From a virus: 64,000 nt of DNA. A program made the translations under genes and the position numbers. The notes under the pieces were generated by a model. The model had not been told where the DNA came from, did not search any database, and saw only the letters and a program-made list of their open reading frames with translations. How positions within the stretch are numbered: the first letter of the stretch is position 1; the number at the start of each line of letters is the position of its first letter. This document shows positions 6,312-48,300 of the stretch, in pieces. The stretch spans positions 1-64,000 of IMG/VR virus record IMGVR_UViG_3300019742_000002; one strand, given 5' to 3'.

Positions 6312-6665
6312 ATGGAATATATTGATATTAATTCTAACATTAATCAAACTAATGTATCCGGTGAAAGTGCTATAAAAAATAGTGTAGTAAATATATTAAC
6401 CACCGAAGTTGGGTCTGTACCGGGTCATCCTGAATTTGGTTCTGCTGTTGTTAAGTATTTGTTTCAACCACTTGACCCCTTGACTACAGAAATGATAAAA
6501 GTAGAGGTAAGATATGCCCTTGAAAGATGGGAAACTAGAGTAACAATTAAGGATATTATAGTTAAAGAAGATATAGATTATAATAGATTAGATGTAGAGA
6601 TTATATATTTTATAAAAGTTGATAGAGATGTTGAGAATACTTTACTATATAGTTTTGTTAGATGA
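6312..6665 (+). CDS. 25: Baseplate wedge protein gp25 (lysozyme-like fold family)
   Basis: 117 aa; T4 gp25 is 132. The central part VPGHPEFGSAVVKYLFQPLD and RYALERWETRVTIKDI match the gp25/GPW family, whose members occupy the inner ring of the wedge and contact the sheath initiator. ATG at 6312 behind AGAGGTAAATTT and the late promoter at 6281. It is followed at 33 bases by gene 6, as expected for baseplate wedge partners. The family assignment is firm. Confidence 0.85.
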   Translation: MEYIDINSNINQTNVSGESAIKNSVVNILTTEVGSVPGHPEFGSAVVKYLFQPLDPLTTEMIKVEVRYALERWETRVTIKDIIVKEDIDYNRLDVEIIYFIKVDRDVENTLLYSFVR

Positions 6666-6669
6666 TTTT

Positions 6670-6677
6670 TATAAATA
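6670..6677 (+). promoter_or_regulatory. Late promoter (TATAAATA) of gene 6
   Basis: TATAAATA starts 4 bases after the stop of gene 25, with AAAAAGAGG before the ATG at 6699. Confidence 0.65.
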
Positions 6678-6698
6678 AATTAAAAAGAGGATATTAAT

Positions 6699-9600
6699 AT
6701 GCTAACAATAGTACCGTATCAATTGGATACAATTAAAGAAGATTTAAAAACAAAGGCTGTAGGATTAGGATATACTGACGCTATACAAGAGGGTTCTAAT
6801 ATTTCACAATTAATAAATCTTCTTAGTTATGCTACTTTATACCCTAACTTAAACTTTACTTTTGGATTAAATGAGATGTTTTTAACACAAGCCACTGACA
6901 GAGCTAATGTTCTAAAACACGCAAGAGATAAAGGATATATTAGTAAAAGAATGCAATCGTATCAATATAAAATTAAACTATTGACTAATAAATATGGTGA
7001 AATTACATTAAATAAATACCAACAATTTTCATCTAATGGAAATAATTATATCTATATGGGGGACTCTATCACAAATGTATATGGAAACTATGCTTATATT
7101 AAGCTACTTTCTAACGAATTTAATAATAGCTTAGATAATACCTATATTGATAATATTTTAGAAGAATCTAATATAGTTACAGAAGATGGTCAGGTTTGTT
7201 ATATATATAGCAAAGAGATTGGAACTTCTAACAAATTGTTAATAAAAACATTAGATGATGAGGATTTACCTATATTTTCTACACTTCCAAAAGAAATCTA
7301 TACACACGATGGAACATATTCAGGAGGATATAGAAATCTTCAAAAAGTCGGTGAAATTGATTCTTATATTACCTCTACTGATGGAAATGAATTTAAGATA
7401 CAAATTACAACGGATACACCCGGAGATTTTCCTATATTTACGGAAGTTATTGAAAATAAAGCACTAAATCAAAATGGTTCTATATTTAAGTTTGATACTG
7501 ATGTAGCAAATCCAATCAAATATATAAAATCTATAGTAGTGGACTCCTCATCAGAGAGTATAGATTTACTTAGTGTAGAATATAATGAAGGTGATTATAA
7601 TGCTAGTATACCAACAGGTCAATTATCTATTATAGAAAACCATCCAAATACCGATATATCCACTGATGTAGATTTTAATGCTAATATAGATACTACTCAC
7701 AATATTATAGAATTAACAGGGGTACAATTAGTAAAAGGTTCAAATAATATAGATATATCTACGAACGATTTAAGTTTTATAGGTAATACAATCTCTATAT
7801 TACAACAATCATATCAAGATACTGAATCTAAAATTGTAAGTGGTTCTACTATCCAATTAACACAAGATAATATAGATATAGTTCTTTATGTTATTATTAG
7901 AAGTACCTCATCAACTCTTATAAGTAATTTTAGTTGGACTACCGATGGAGTTATAACAATTTTAGATGAATTTAATGCACCTGATACACAATATGATGGA
8001 TTAAATGTAGATATTGATTTTAAATATATAGAGGATTATACAAATGTTGATGATATTAACATATCCTATACATATAATAACAATACACTTGCAGGTGAAC
8101 CAATAACAGTGACTTATGAATATGATATTGGAGGTGATGGATTCTTAGATAAAAAGTTTTTCTTTAGTGATTTAAGAGGTGAATATTTAGATAATGAGAC
8201 TAATTGGGAAGGTTTTTATGCAAATTCTTTTGACCCCGAAACATCCATATTAACCTTTGATATATCAGGTACTAATAATTTATATGTTAGTATAGAAAAT
8301 AATGGAATTTTTGAAGACCCTTTGCAATTGAATGAAGCTATAGAATCTCCTTATAGAAGGACTAGGTTTTCAAATGGTGTTGTATTCGACGAGAGTACTT
8401 GTTTTGCTTCTATAAATAACACAGAACTAAAAAACACAATAGAGATAGTTGTGAAAGAGGGTGAATTAAGAAGATATAGTGATGTGGATGATTTATCAGA
8501 ACCTTTGTATCCAAATCAAACTTTTATTATTAATAATGATATGGAAGATTCGGGATATTTTATGATAGATGCTGATACTATTGAAAATAATGGTATTGAG
8601 ATGTTTGTAACAAGAACTATAGATGATGGTTCTTTAGTGACTGATGAGGTTTGGACTAAAAGAGAGCTTTTGTTACCTGAGAAAAAACTAGAAGAGGATA
8701 AGACTTTTATTATACTATCTGACTTAAATTACGAAAATTATGTAAATATCTATACTAGATATGCAGGAACAGGAACGGCTTTAGGGTTAGGTTCAACTAT
8801 TAAATTGAATATGATATATTCAAGTGGTTCAAATGGATTTACTAATGATATAATAGAACCTATTGATAATACTGATTTTATTGGAACAATGTATGATGAG
8901 GATTTAAATATCCCTAATATTGTCTATATAGAGGGGTCTGATAAAGAATCCACACAAGATATAAAAGATAATGCTTTATTATTTAACAATACAGCATCAA
9001 GAGCCGTTACCAAAAATGATTATTTAACAATAGTAAATTCTCAGCCATTTATAGGGGATACTGAAATTTGGGGTGGAGAGGATATAGTACCTACACCTGT
9101 ACCCGGTCATATATATATAACGGCTATACCAACATCTAAACCTAGTGATTTTGTTCTAATTAATAATGAGTATATATTAACATCTACTAACACAGATTTA
9201 TTCTACCCTACATATTATCAAATAACAGGTAAAGATAGTTATATAGACTATGATGCAAGTACAGAAGCTGAGGTATTATTTAATATTATAGATAAATATA
9301 AAGTAATGACACTACAATTGGATTATGTTAAAACTATTTATTTAGATTTTAAGTTAGATATAAGGATTCTTAAGAAAACTTTCTTTAAGAGTACTGAGGA
9401 GATAAATGATGAGATGTTTAATAAGATAAAGGATTATTTCTATACTAATATAGAGACATATAACTCAAACTTCTTCAACTCAACAACAACAAAATATATA
9501 GATTCGGTTCTAGGTGATGATTTTGGTTTTGAAATGAATGTAGATTTTAGTGTGGAGTTGTTTGATTATATAGACGACCCCGATAGAGGAGTTTTTACCA

Positions 9601-19637: not shown

Positions 19638-21053
19638 ATGAAAACAATGATAAACGAAAAAGTAAGAGAGAGTATGAAGCATACTTACGGTGAGGATATT
19701 GTAGGGCTTTTGGAGTCTGAAAGATTTCCTGCTATTCAAGAAGATAACTTAGGAACACAAGCTATAGTATTGGAAAATACTAAAAAAGAAATAGCTAGAC
19801 TTTATGAGGATACCTCTACATCAGATGTTGCTGTATTTACACCAATATTTATGCCGATGACTCGTAGAATTCAACCAGCTCTTATAGCGAATAGACTTTT
19901 GGGTGTTCAACCAATGTCACAACAAACAGGTTACATTAATACTCTAATCTTCAAATATACAGGTTTTGGGGCAGACGCTAATGATAGACTTGGTGGAAGA
20001 ATTGACCCTGGTGTTAGTTCGCAAATTATAGAAATTACTGGTCATACACTTGTAAAAGGTGATGTTATCTCTAGTGATAATGTTCCTGATACAAATCTTG
20101 CAACTGTAATATATGTAGAGGGTGATTTACTATTGATTGATACTGCAGTATTTAGTGCAGGTGGAATTGTTTATGATAATGCGGCTGTACCTGCTCAAAT
20201 TGGTGCTTTAGTTATTGCTAATACATATTCAAATCAACTTACTTTTAAGAAAATTCTAAAAGGTTACACAGGTTCACTTCCAACCACACAAGCTGAAATT
20301 CTTGGGTATGATATGAAAGAAATCGGGTTCACTGTTACACAAACTCTTATTGAGGCTAAATCAAGAAAATTGAAAGCTGAATATACTGTTGAAATGTACC
20401 AAAACTTGAAAGATACTTATGGTCTTAATGCTGATGAAGAGTTAATGAATATGATGAGTTCTGAGGTTCTTAACGAGCTTGATAGAGAAGTTATTGATTC
20501 AGTAAACTCATGGGCGGCACCATCTAGTGACTTTACAATAGCAAACGGTGCAGGTGCAAGTGGTTCTACAAGATTTGAGATGGAATCAATGGCTCATATC
20601 GGAGTTAAAATCCAAAATGAAGCTAGAGAAGTTGGAAAATTGACAAGAATGGGTTCAGCAAATATTATATTGGCTACACCAAGAGTTGTTACAGTTCTTG
20701 AACAATTGAGAGGATTTAAAGCTATTGAGAATGATTCTATGTTGAGTACAAATGTAGCTGGAGCAAGTGTTGTTGGAACATTTGGTGGAATGGAAGTAAT
20801 CCTTGATAACTTTACTGATAGAGAGTATGTTACAGTGCTTTATAAGGGAGATAATAGGGCATCTATAGGCTACTACTCACCTTACAAAGGCATCTCATTT
20901 ACTAGAGTAACTCATCCTGATACAGGACAACCTGCTATTATATTGAGTTCAAGATACGGTTTGATTGAAAACCCACTAAACCAAGATAATGGTGTTGGTA
21001 TCTTTGGTAGAACATTTGATGTTATATTTGATTCTACATCGGTATTAGCATAA
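19638..21053 (+). CDS. 23: Major capsid protein gp23
   Basis: 471 aa; T4 gp23 is 521. T4-type signatures: TPIFMPMTRRIQPALIANRL, LLGVQPMSQQTGYINTLIF, a helix KAEYTVEMYQNLKDTYGLN, and the C-terminal GKLTRMGSANIILATPRVVT. The first about 35 residues contain charged helix and FPAIQEDN, a possible prohead-protease site, so the N-terminus is probably removed on maturation as in T4. It has the best codon use and ribosome site of the block, and a terminator follows. Identity firm; cleavage position inferred. Confidence 0.85.
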   Translation: MKTMINEKVRESMKHTYGEDIVGLLESERFPAIQEDNLGTQAIVLENTKKEIARLYEDTSTSDVAVFTPIFMPMTRRIQPALIANRLLGVQPMSQQTGYINTLIFKYTGFGADANDRLGGRIDPGVSSQIIEITGHTLVKGDVISSDNVPDTNLATVIYVEGDLLLIDTAVFSAGGIVYDNAAVPAQIGALVIANTYSNQLTFKKILKGYTGSLPTTQAEILGYDMKEIGFTVTQTLIEAKSRKLKAEYTVEMYQNLKDTYGLNADEELMNMMSSEVLNELDREVIDSVNSWAAPSSDFTIANGAGASGSTRFEMESMAHIGVKIQNEAREVGKLTRMGSANIILATPRVVTVLEQLRGFKAIENDSMLSTNVAGASVVGTFGGMEVILDNFTDREYVTVLYKGDNRASIGYYSPYKGISFTRVTHPDTGQPAIILSSRYGLIENPLNQDNGVGIFGRTFDVIFDSTSVLA

Positions 21054-21059
21054 CAAAAT

Positions 21060-21085
21060 AAATTAGAGTCTTTTGGCTCTAATTT
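21060..21085 (+). terminator. Terminator after the major capsid gene
   Basis: Perfect 9-bp stem AAATTAGAG/CTCTAATTT with 8-base loop, then AATAAG. Weak U tract but well placed, 6 bases after the stop. Confidence 0.6.
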
Positions 21086-21093
21086 AATAAGAA

Positions 21094-21126
21094 AGTGTAT
21101 ATTTTAAGTAACTATACACTATAATT
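21094..21126 (+). promoter_or_regulatory. Early-type promoter within an inverted repeat
   Basis: TTTTAAGTAAC, 7 bases, TATAAT (21119-21124) fits the phage early promoter in + orientation, the opposite strand from most. An 8-bp inverted repeat AGTGTATA/TATACACT (21094-21101, 21113-21120) brackets it and could be an operator. Transcription would start near 21131, right at the stem of the leader. Confidence 0.5.
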
Positions 21127-21134
21127 ATAAAGAT

Positions 21135-21209
21135 AAAAAATCTTTTATATCCAATAAGAAACTTTACTAGGCTCAACTTATTGGATATAAAAGATTTTTT
21201 GAGCCTAGT
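21135..21209 (+). ncRNA. Leader RNA folding as an H-type pseudoknot
   Basis: A perfect 24-bp inverted repeat (21135-21158 with 21177-21200) encloses an 18-base loop. The loop part ACTAGGCTCAA (21166-21176) is perfectly complementary to TTGAGCCTAGT at 21199-21209, just past the stem. The order A-B-A'-B' is that of an H-type pseudoknot. The stem ends in TTTTTT, so it could also act as an intrinsic terminator or attenuator. It sits between promoter 21094-21126 and gene 21245. The same topology precedes the polymerase-like gene at 48181. The pairing is seen directly; the function is open. Confidence 0.6.
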
Positions 21210-21244
21210 AACTCAAATATCTTAATTAAAATTTAAGGTTATAA

Positions 21245-22018
21245 ATGAAATATACAACTCCAAAAATACCACACGAGGATTTATTCTTCAAAGATGTAAA
21301 ATTTAAAACTACAGGTTATTATGTAAAAAGATTTCCAAAAGAATTGGAAGAGTTTCTTATTATGGATTTAGATTTAAAACATTCAAAAAGATACTACATT
21401 GATTCAGTTTATAGATTCTATATAGATAATTTAGAAGAATTAAAAACAGATATTACTCCTTTTATAGAATTTTATAAATCCAATAATAAATTTTATGGTA
21501 AACCTACAATAGCTAAAACATATCCTGAATTATTAGAACAATGGATAGAGGCTACCAAAAAAACTGAATATACAGTAGAAAAATTATATGAATTATGTAT
21601 AAAAGGAGCTTTACCAAAACCAAGAGAAAAATATAATAAAATGATAGTGGATTCTTTATGTGATGAAGCAAAAGAAGAATTTAATAAAGGTGTTAAATTG
21701 TCTTTTGTTATAAGAAAATATATTAATAAAGAAGATATTAATACTCTTTGTAAATCTTGTGGTAAACCAGTTAAACAATTAACAAATGAGTGTTTAGATT
21801 GTACTAAAAGTTTAAAGCAAAAAAGAGCTTCTAAGAAAAGAGGTTTAAGAATGTTAGAAGATAAACCTTCTTATGTTAGTGTTGTAAAAGGTGATGTATT
21901 TTCAGAAGATATTCGTAGAGAAAGACTTACGATTAAATGTTCTAATTGTAATAGAGAATTTTCTTATGTATTGAACTTAGGTAAGAGACACCTATTCTGT
22001 CCAATATGTGATAAATAA
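21245..22018 (+). CDS. Zinc-ribbon protein of unknown function (257 aa)
   Basis: ATG at 21245 behind TTTAAGGTTATAA, after the pseudoknot leader. The first about 170 residues are basic and mostly helical (KDVKFKTTGYYVKRFPKELE, LEQWIEATKKTEYTVEKLYE). The last 90 hold two Cys sets: CKSCGKP with CLDC, and IKCSNCNREF with LFCPICDK, so two zinc ribbons or one split one. Such proteins often bind nucleic acid. It has no TATAAATA promoter although it lies next to the capsid gene. A 15-bp hairpin terminator follows. No family recognised. Confidence 0.65.
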   Translation: MKYTTPKIPHEDLFFKDVKFKTTGYYVKRFPKELEEFLIMDLDLKHSKRYYIDSVYRFYIDNLEELKTDITPFIEFYKSNNKFYGKPTIAKTYPELLEQWIEATKKTEYTVEKLYELCIKGALPKPREKYNKMIVDSLCDEAKEEFNKGVKLSFVIRKYINKEDINTLCKSCGKPVKQLTNECLDCTKSLKQKRASKKRGLRMLEDKPSYVSVVKGDVFSEDIRRERLTIKCSNCNREFSYVLNLGKRHLFCPICDK

Positions 22019-22020
22019 GT

Positions 22021-22052
22021 AGATAAACCTAGTTAAATAACTAGGTTTATCT
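22021..22052 (+). terminator. Hairpin terminator after 21245-22018
   Basis: Perfect 15-bp inverted repeat AGATAAACCTAGTTA/TAACTAGGTTTATCT with a 2-base loop, 2 bases after the stop. Also usable on the minus strand for the operon 22113-22740. Confidence 0.65.
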
Positions 22053-22112
22053 TGAACCCCTAACCAAAGTCTCCATATAATAAGAGTTCATTAAACCTAA
22101 TTATTCAGTCAC

Positions 22113-46387: not shown

Positions 46388-48181
46388 CTATAGAAGAGCT
46401 ACCTTGGTGTATATAAATCTATCAAGAGTCATAAAACCTTTGAGTAACTGTAAACTATAGATAGTATTTGTTATTAGTTTGATAAAGAGCATCTTTCTAA
46501 TATTGTTCTTAAATCTTTTAACCCCTATCTTAATACCCTTTTTAATAGAGTGAATTAATTTAGCTCTTTTTCTTCTTTTAATAAACTCTTTTCTCTTTTT
46601 TTCTGATTCAAAATATTTAATATAACTTCTAGTTTCAGAAAAATCTATTATTTGATTGTTTAATTTCAACATCTTTTGAATTTCTTTAATATCAGTTAAT
46701 TCAAGTTTAGAAATTTCATTAATAGGAATAAGAAGTCCATCATGTACATTTACTATATGTTCAATTTTAATTTTTTTAGTACCTAGGTATGCTTTAAGAG
46801 AATTCATAATTTTAGTTTCTTCTAACATAAACATTCTTGAAATATTTTCATATCCTAAATTTCTAGCTATAATATCTAATTCTTTCATTTCTGAATTAAA
46901 ATCTTTATAAAAAGTTGAAAGTTTAAGTGCATCATGTACAGTTTTATCATCTTTTGTATTTCTATTAAAAGGAGTTAAATGTCTTCCAAATATAGCACTA
47001 AGATACTCCATTTTAAACATAGACCTAAATTCAATCTTTTTGTTAGCTCCTTGTTTACCTCTAATATTATCAATTGTATCTACATTGGACTCAATAATCT
47101 TTTTTCTATTTTTTATATATTCAATAAGACAAGGATAGTTAATAGGGTCTATATTATGGTTCTCAAAACAATTCTTTATTAATCTTGGTGCGGCATTTTC
47201 TAAATCAAATTCAATATAATCTCTAAATAATCCATTTCTTATTTTTTTAGGAATCTGATTTAAAATATCAAAAATTCTACCAGAAGATGTAAATGTTCTA
47301 TTAAAATAAATATGTTCATCTACTATATTTTTTCTTATTAATTTCATAGAATTAATATATCTTCTTCTTTGAGCTGGGTATCTCATATATCCTATATCAT
47401 TATCTAATTCATCGAGAATCTCTAAGTAATTATTGGGTAATTTAAATTTTATAATATCTTTGTAATTTTCCTTAGGAACTTCTCTTGGAATATTTTTAGA
47501 TTTAGATGTAGTTACATCATCAGAGAGTCTCATTATAACCATATCAATAGGTTTTAGAGGTTTTTGTTTAGAGGCTATATCATAAAACTCCTGATATTTG
47601 GCTAGAGAAATAGTACCATTTAGAACTTTTTTAAGAATAGTATCTACTTTTTGGACTTTTGAATATACTTGGTTACTGTTGTCATAAGGATTGTTTAAAA
47701 ATTCATAAGAAGAACAACCTGAACCATCAAAAGAATTACCTCTTCTTGTTTGATTAAGATAAAGGTTATAGAAATCTCTATATGATACAAAAGAAGATAG
47801 GGATTTTTTAAGGTAGGTATTACTAAGAGCAAGGTCACCTGTTAATTCATGAACTGAATGAGCAGAAGAAAGTAGTTTAGAAATAGATTTTAGAACATTG
47901 ATTGATAGGTTATATTTAATATATTTTTTTGCACTTTTAAATTGAATCATATCTTGAACAATACTAGGATGTGGAACTATAGAGTAACTTCTTTTTTGTT
48001 TTTCTATATTAGTAAAGGTTTTATCTGATTTAATTGCAGTATGAACTTGAATAATAGCCTCTTTTGGATTAAGGATATTTTTAATGTAGTAATAATCCTT
48101 GTGGATTGTAAGATATGTTAGGTCATAATTAAATGGATTGGTAAGTATATAATCTTTGAGGTTTTCTTTTTTAATTTTCAT
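46388..48181 (-). CDS. Divergent family-A (Pol I-like) polymerase homologue
   Basis: 597 aa. Residues 296-333 read FTSSGRIFDILNQIPKKIRN ... DYIEFDLENAAPRLI, matching the Pol I layout TGRLSS..PNLQNIP followed by motif A (catalytic Asp 326, Arg 333). Residues 374-400 with R, K and a final AIFGR fit motif B (RxxxKxxxFGxxYG), and NVHDGLLIP (His 480, Asp 481) fits motif C. No 3'-5' exonuclease motif is visible in the first 250 residues, and the C-terminal 80 are basic. T4-type phages replicate with a family-B enzyme, so this is a second, specialised polymerase. Late promoter and pseudoknot leader precede it. Template and product unknown. Confidence 0.6.
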   Translation of the reverse strand: MKIKKENLKDYILTNPFNYDLTYLTIHKDYYYIKNILNPKEAIIQVHTAIKSDKTFTNIEKQKRSYSIVPHPSIVQDMIQFKSAKKYIKYNLSINVLKSISKLLSSAHSVHELTGDLALSNTYLKKSLSSFVSYRDFYNLYLNQTRRGNSFDGSGCSSYEFLNNPYDNSNQVYSKVQKVDTILKKVLNGTISLAKYQEFYDIASKQKPLKPIDMVIMRLSDDVTTSKSKNIPREVPKENYKDIIKFKLPNNYLEILDELDNDIGYMRYPAQRRRYINSMKLIRKNIVDEHIYFNRTFTSSGRIFDILNQIPKKIRNGLFRDYIEFDLENAAPRLIKNCFENHNIDPINYPCLIEYIKNRKKIIESNVDTIDNIRGKQGANKKIEFRSMFKMEYLSAIFGRHLTPFNRNTKDDKTVHDALKLSTFYKDFNSEMKELDIIARNLGYENISRMFMLEETKIMNSLKAYLGTKKIKIEHIVNVHDGLLIPINEISKLELTDIKEIQKMLKLNNQIIDFSETRSYIKYFESEKKRKEFIKRRKRAKLIHSIKKGIKIGVKRFKNNIRKMLFIKLITNTIYSLQLLKGFMTLDRFIYTKVALL

Positions 48182-48207: not shown

Positions 48208-48289
48208 AAGTAGAATGCTGTCCTACTTCTTAAGAGAGTTCATATCAAGTGGTAGGACAGCAAAAGCACCTGTATATGAACTCTCTTAA
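48208..48289 (-). ncRNA. Leader RNA of the polymerase-like gene, H-type pseudoknot
   Basis: On the minus strand, reading downstream: TTAAGAGAGTTCATAT (48289-48274), 12 bases, GCTGTCCTAC (48261-48252), 6 bases, ATATGAACTCTCTTAA (48245-48230), 3 bases, GTAGGACAGC (48226-48217). The two perfect pairings (16 bp and 10 bp) interlock as A-B-A'-B'. An alternative hairpin AAGTAG/CTACTT (48228-48223 with 48213-48208), followed by TT, would compete with the second stem. The ATG comes 27 bases later behind AAAAAAGGAG. Pairing is seen; function is unknown. Confidence 0.65.
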
Positions 48290-48300
48290 AGACTTTATGT

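Follow-up and report, generated by a model that had tools for sequence, protein, structure and literature searches.

The window, by which we mean the whole stretch of 64,000 nucleotides analysed here, is part of a 91,723-nt T4-like virus record. The T4-type capsid gene gp23 occupies 19638-21053, and a truncated homing endonuclease gene (HEG) is inserted 3′ of it. From gp23 onwards, the order is a small hairpin (21059-21086), an early-type promoter, a structure built of a stem A and a helix B, and the ATG at 21245. The small hairpin, formed on the plus strand 3′ of the gp23 stop codon by 10 bp between TAAATTAGAG and CTCTAATTTA, is a possible terminator of gp23 transcripts; the terminator consensus scan gave no match there. 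The early-type promoter (21102-21125, plus strand) consists of TTTTAAGT at 21102-21109 and TATAAT at 21120-21125, a motif common to many genes of the phage, and its transcript start is predicted at about 21132. It resembles the C. jejuni consensus TTTAAGTnTT/TATAAT (PMC3824568). In the window and its relatives, the early promoter sequence is TTTAAGTTTAnTTGGCTATAATTA, which resembles promoters of Campylobacter jejuni (PMC3824568), and late promoters are TATAAATA, located 25-30 nt 5′ of the ATG. Because of these two motifs, the early one being C. jejuni-like, a Campylobacterota host is suggested. A perfect 8-bp inverted repeat, AGTGTATA-N11-TATACACT (21094-21120), lies across the -35 region of the early promoter, is unique in the window and is a possible operator. 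Elsewhere in the window, AATCGTAGATACT was found 7 times versus 0.16 expected (22802, 23197, 24793, 30389, 62745, 62871 and 63174), and its copies sit inside longer dispersed intergenic repeats. Directly 3′ of the stop codon of the truncated HEG, a 15-bp hairpin (22021-22052) was terminator-like on the minus strand in the terminator scan.

The gene at 21245-22018 (plus strand) encodes a protein of 257 aa (P0001). It had been taken for a zinc-ribbon gene from the sequence alone, but all zinc-ribbon matches of P0001 were sub-threshold, and sequence comparison identified it as a truncated homing endonuclease gene. Its relative in the related phage L001 is 79% identical and 550 aa long, and this full-length protein matched PHROG 3339 ‘homing endonuclease’ with E=5.5e-107. 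DNA homology between the window and L001 breaks off near 21793 and is restored near 22094, indicating that the window copy kept the N-terminal region, has a divergent zinc-ribbon segment as its end, and lost the nuclease domain that is present in L001. By this comparison, the window gene is a remnant of a free-standing HEG family (PHROG 3339 type) adjoining gene 23.

Stem A and helix B in the leader

A 24-bp perfect stem whose loop pairs over 11 bp with the bases just past it had been proposed to lie between the early-type promoter and gene 21245-22018. The structure was recovered as described, with TTTTAAGT and TATAAT just upstream. Stem A pairs a 24-nt 5′ arm at 21135-21158 with A′ at 21177-21200, perfectly and around an 18-nt loop, and exceeds every other perfect hairpin of the 64-kb window in length. 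Helix B pairs 21164-21176, within the loop of A, with B′ at 21199-21211 in 13 perfect base pairs, of which 11 lie beyond the stem because bases 21199-21200 are claimed by both A and B. The A-B-A′-B′ score of this leader was 84, whereas the maximum in 40 block-wise dinucleotide shuffles of the 91.7-kb record was 56, so that 0/40 shuffled genomes reached it. The leader RNA was also far more stable than its shuffles (z = -6.4), with nested-fold energies in which pseudoknots are not modelled. Since A′ and B′ have no linker and overlap by two bases, the complete 24-bp A and the complete 13-bp B are incompatible. A simple distance calculation suggests that B can form once about 7-8 A-U pairs have opened at the foot of A. 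Leaving pseudoknot penalties aside, this cost would be covered by helix B, for which -19 kcal/mol is predicted as a free duplex.

Two further hairpins were recognized downstream. P1 is a possible alternative hairpin that pairs TTTGAG (21198-21203) with CTCAAA (21212-21217). It can be extended by AAGAT (21191-21195) with ATCTT (21219-21223) to span 21191-21223, and it excludes A, B and P2. P2 (21219-21239) was obtained from fold prediction; it pairs ATCTTAA with TTAAGGT and would bury the SD (AAGG, 21235-21238). Rfam gave no match at or above the gathering score, and a phage DNA search with the locus returned zero matches. The exact stem A sequence was found elsewhere in L001 only.

Stem A starts with six A residues and A′ ends with six U, which invites the explanation that an A6-stem-U6 bidirectional intrinsic terminator separates gp23 from the next gene and is not part of the mRNA of gene 21245. 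However, the U6 pairs with the A6 inside the stem and leaves no unpaired U-tract, the stem is A/T-rich, and the U-tract is not common to other leaders of this shape. Helix B would have no explanation, and the early promoter at 21102-21125 would serve nothing if all transcripts stopped at 21200. The structure was not called by the terminator scan either, although the loop limit of 8 would exclude stem A anyway. A terminator is therefore very unlikely.

The sequence-only reading had also claimed that two genes of this phage carry such leaders, and a topology scan agreed. The second leader (48216-48290, minus strand) has a 17-bp stem and an 11-bp docking helix, lies 5′ of gene 46388-48181 and, with a score of 64, is the only other strong structure in the 91.7-kb record. 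Its gene encodes P0002, whose structure prediction was useless (pLDDT 37). The P0002 family has leaders of this kind in three phages (46388-48181 on the minus strand, L016:1782-3977 and L182:10084-11427). It has motifs like FDLENAAPRLI and VHDGLLIP, which look polymerase-palm-like by eye, a resemblance that is unproven, and the L016 member carries an HNH endonuclease domain. By its own sequence, no relatives of P0002 were found in viral contigs.

The pairings of both helices are conserved with covariation. Over the 191-nt intergenic region, the window and L001 differ by two substitutions and a 1-nt indel. Both substitutions pair with each other in helix B, one in each arm, turning A-U into C-G, a compensatory change. 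A simple count of the 37 pairs against all possible pairs of positions, with one base in three taken as complementary, puts the chance of this at about 7e-4. Among five leaders of the gp23-HEG type, the 38 pairs of A and B were 98.4% paired and 12 were changed on both sides, which was matched by 0/500 shuffles. P1 was 100% paired, with three covarying pairs, in the nine leaders whose A′ ends in a late promoter. P2 also covaries, shares bases with P1 and buries the SD. Two mutually exclusive hairpins that both covary would be the mark of an RNA switch. Because the sequences are few and related, the covariation counts are supportive and not conclusive.

Recurrence of the leader shape in related phages

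All fetched loci were scanned for long stems whose loop pairs with the 3′ flank. Related phages yielded 21 distinct strong A-B-A′-B′ structures, at least 17 of them 5′ of HEGs or HEG remnants and 2 of them 5′ of P0002-like genes. The site is just 5′ of start codons: an ORF start lay at most 45 nt away on one side in 17/21 structures, and on both sides in 0/21. In the 181 loci around HEG relatives (1.01 Mb), 20 structures scored at least 60, while 8 shuffles gave none. The association with HEGs is subject to ascertainment, because the loci were fetched largely with HEG queries. Where stretches were taken whole (the window genome of 92 kb, 100 kb of G019, most of G010, half of G017 and 35 kb of G020), 5 of the 7 strong hits lay 5′ of HEG or P0002-like genes. 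Two G020 structures (L184 and L185, score 61-64) were set aside as GU-rich or long-looped and outside the pattern.

The leaders precede several kinds of genes. Directly 3′ of gp23, they precede HNH-type HEGs in L015, L016 and L017 and a relative of these in L260. At a second site, 3′ of a gene ending ...VEFSEIFV, HNH HEGs follow the leader in L015_526, L040, L062, L078 and L083, a decayed HEG follows it in L020, and an unrelated leader with an unrelated HEG occupies the same kind of site in L098. Other leaders precede a 731-aa protein with an HNH domain (L016_1673), an HNH HEG (L190), full-length EDxHD-type HEGs (L196 and L232), HEG remnants (L242 and L260b) and a 447-aa P0002-like protein (L182). 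In L020 (317-540), the leader is intact although the HEG that follows carries a frameshift and has lost most of its sequence. L260 has two near-identical leaders, one of them 5′ of the HEG remnant. On the other hand, the topology was missing at most other phage HEG loci scanned, so the A-B-A′-B′ leader is not a general HEG feature. In the Campylobacter phage NCTC12673, it was present at none of the endonuclease genes, and one hit of score 54 was found elsewhere.

The stem and loop sequences are unrelated among these leaders and the topology is common to them. The earlier statement that shape and not sequence is shared thus extends to 5′ leaders of related phages, and this recurrence supports the common phage mechanism that had been suggested. 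In the genomes seen, leaders of different genes differ in the sequence of B (L016, L040, L015, L054, L020, L078 and L260). The same B (GTCGTGGTTCTG) was found in different phages at two distinct loci, a pattern that swapping of docking modules could produce. The otherwise unrelated leaders L098:3016-3074, L190:3684-3742 and L242:2313-2375 have loops that start with CTCTTC followed by CGGT-like bases.

Inverted repeats would covary at the DNA level too, and HEG leaders do occupy recurrent insertion sites (3′ of gp23 and 3′ of the gene ending ...VEFSEIFV), as might a palindromic or nested inverted repeat marking a mobile gene insertion or recombination site. Such a DNA-level element is nevertheless extremely improbable: A, B, P1 and P2 all accept G-U pairs, the structure is one-sided, at the gene 5′ end, and several members pair the SD itself.

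L001 has a near-identical leader and P0002-like genes have leaders of this topology. The full-length orthologue of the window HEG in L024 carries the same zinc ribbons but has an early leader that is short and plain, without A-B-A′-B′. This bears on the other possibility raised by the sequence-only reading, two RNA-protein pairs, which in the manner of T4 gp32 would make the zinc-ribbon product bind its own pseudoknot leader and block its translation. In favour of this, the T4 zinc protein gp32 binds its own leader at a pseudoknot (PMC3014915), and an A/U-rich unstructured stretch also follows the window structure. However, closely related genes have leaders unrelated in sequence, and the same shape precedes different protein classes, HNH-class endonucleases among them. 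Together with the L024 orthologue, these results make autoregulation highly improbable; the zinc-ribbon protein was dropped as an RNA partner, its gene being a truncated HEG.

Predicted SD accessibility and proposed translational repression

Predicted SD accessibility was compared over the 95 genes of the phage with a recognizable SD. The median was 0.76; the window HEG, at 0.08, was second lowest of the 95, and its SD is predicted to be sequestered by RNA structure. P0002 ranked 10 of 95 (0.25), and structure-led genes in the relatives likewise crowd the low end. With B′ engaged, the predicted accessibility fell from 0.66 to 0.09 in L017 and from 0.87 to 0.25 in P0002, and docking also lowered it in L015 and L016gp23. 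In the window leader, docking left the predicted value unchanged at 0.22. For an RNA starting at A′, and for such 5′-truncated RNA only, the extended P1 becomes possible and the predicted accessibility was 0.53; this is only a hint that cleavage of stem A might release the window leader.

Among the relatives, the SD appears to be linked to docking in three recurrent arrangements. In the first, B′ is enclosed by P1, and nine leaders of relatives carry the late promoter TATAAATA where A′ ends; RNAs started there would lack A and B. The A′ arm of the window has TATAAAAG only and no TATAAATA. In the second, the 5′ end just before A pairs, as P0, with the anti-SD just after B′, a geometry in which docking and P0 would be sterically exclusive. 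P0 was significant in L016_1673 (p=0.0002), L098 (p=0.007) and L190 (p=0.04), and is also readable in L242; it was not significant in the window leader (p about 0.39). In L098, L190 and L242, AAGAG at the 5′ end can pair with CTCTT 3′ of B′. In the third, the SD lies within B′ itself (L196 and L232, and also L234, where the downstream ORF has just 49 aa). In the L234 structure (6665-6732, also in L235), a 20-bp hairpin has a 10-nt loop, CCTCCCAG, that can pair with CTGGGAGG, the SD of this small zinc-finger-like ORF, a direct SD capture by the hairpin loop.

We therefore read the window structure, with a probability of roughly two in three, as a translation-repressing 5′ leader of a free-standing HEG, belonging to a recurrent class of loop-docking pseudoknots that keeps HEG translation low. 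Stem A would form at the very 5′ end of the RNA, because early transcription is predicted to start 2-4 bases before A. B′ would then dock into the loop of A, and the downstream hairpin P2 would bury the SD. An anti-sequestor helix (P1 or P0) has its two strands on either side of B′ in the better-resolved relatives, and docking would therefore pull these strands apart and free the anti-SD strand; in other relatives the SD would be hidden directly, as part of B′. Late RNAs from TATAAATA, in one subfamily, lack A and B, and repression would therefore be lifted late, as for T4 I-TevI. Of these elements, the window leader shows only the docking structure and the hairpin that buries the SD, and any switching by it would be hypothetical; that a cut in the long stem, for example by RNase III, releases it is a guess. 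Because its HEG is truncated, the window leader may be a relic. For the class, the most likely role is to keep endonuclease translation low or to delay it.

A strong stem that begins right after the predicted start site, 2-4 nt from it, could also act as an mRNA-stabilising 5′ cap that blocks 5′-end-dependent decay and plays no part in translation. We consider this unlikely, since it leaves the conserved docking helix B, the exclusivity of P1 and P2, the buried SD sites and the SD inside B′ unexplained, and since the late RNA of the late-promoter subfamily would be without the stem.

More broadly, phage selfish genes may repeatedly use an RNA device of which the repressing leader is one case, a proposal to which we give a little less than an even chance. 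A long 5′ hairpin would capture its own 3′ flank with its loop, docking would break an anti-sequestor helix or hide the SD and turn translation off, and repression would be relieved by a late promoter within the stem or once the stem is lost or cleaved. The device would have been re-invented or shuffled between unrelated endonuclease families. Its sequences would be free to change while the pairings hold, and leaders in one genome could therefore stay mutually non-pairing. If the class holds, harmful gene expression could be timed or limited by a module that needs no fixed sequence, and the structure would serve as a signature for finding unannotated selfish genes.

Comparison with known leaders

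Among open-access papers searched for this subject, none reported a pseudoknot leader of a homing endonuclease in its title or abstract. According to a 2010 review, the gene 32 leader may be the sole viral pseudoknot that serves translational autoregulation (PMC3014915). In T4, T2 and RB69, this pseudoknot lies about 35-70 nt 5′ of the start codon and is followed by an A/U-rich stretch with the SD, as in the window; gene 32 encodes an ssDNA-binding protein, which binds it (PMC3014915). Unlike gene 32, the window leader has a 24-bp stem and precedes a truncated HEG, and no protein ligand is indicated here. The seg43(25) gene of Aeromonas phage 25 (PMC2988022) is similar in that a very stable hairpin lies 5′ of the RBS of an HEG, with the RBS outside the hairpin, but a docking helix is not described there. 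As to position, T4 segD (PMC2988022) and two NCTC12673 endonuclease genes 3′ of gp23 are likewise free-standing HEGs adjoining gene 23, although segD, unlike the window HEG, is a GIY-YIG enzyme in antisense orientation.

The closest likeness is to T4 I-TevI, SegB and Aeh1 MobE, which have SD-sequestering RNA structures, I-TevI having a late promoter that escapes its structure (PMC2988022). As in this group, which also includes I-TevII and I-TevIII, the genes are HEGs of T4-like phages whose SD is buried by RNA structure, and one subfamily of relatives has a late promoter within the structure, whose RNAs cannot fold into it. The I-TevI-group leaders are described as hairpins, whereas here the loop of a long stem pairs with the 3′ flank. 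The window leader further differs from I-TevI in that its stem has no late promoter and a separate small hairpin holds the SD. The class can thus be regarded as a pseudoknot version of the T4 I-TevI/mobE RNA switches, with the late-promoter feature carried by relatives rather than by the window leader.
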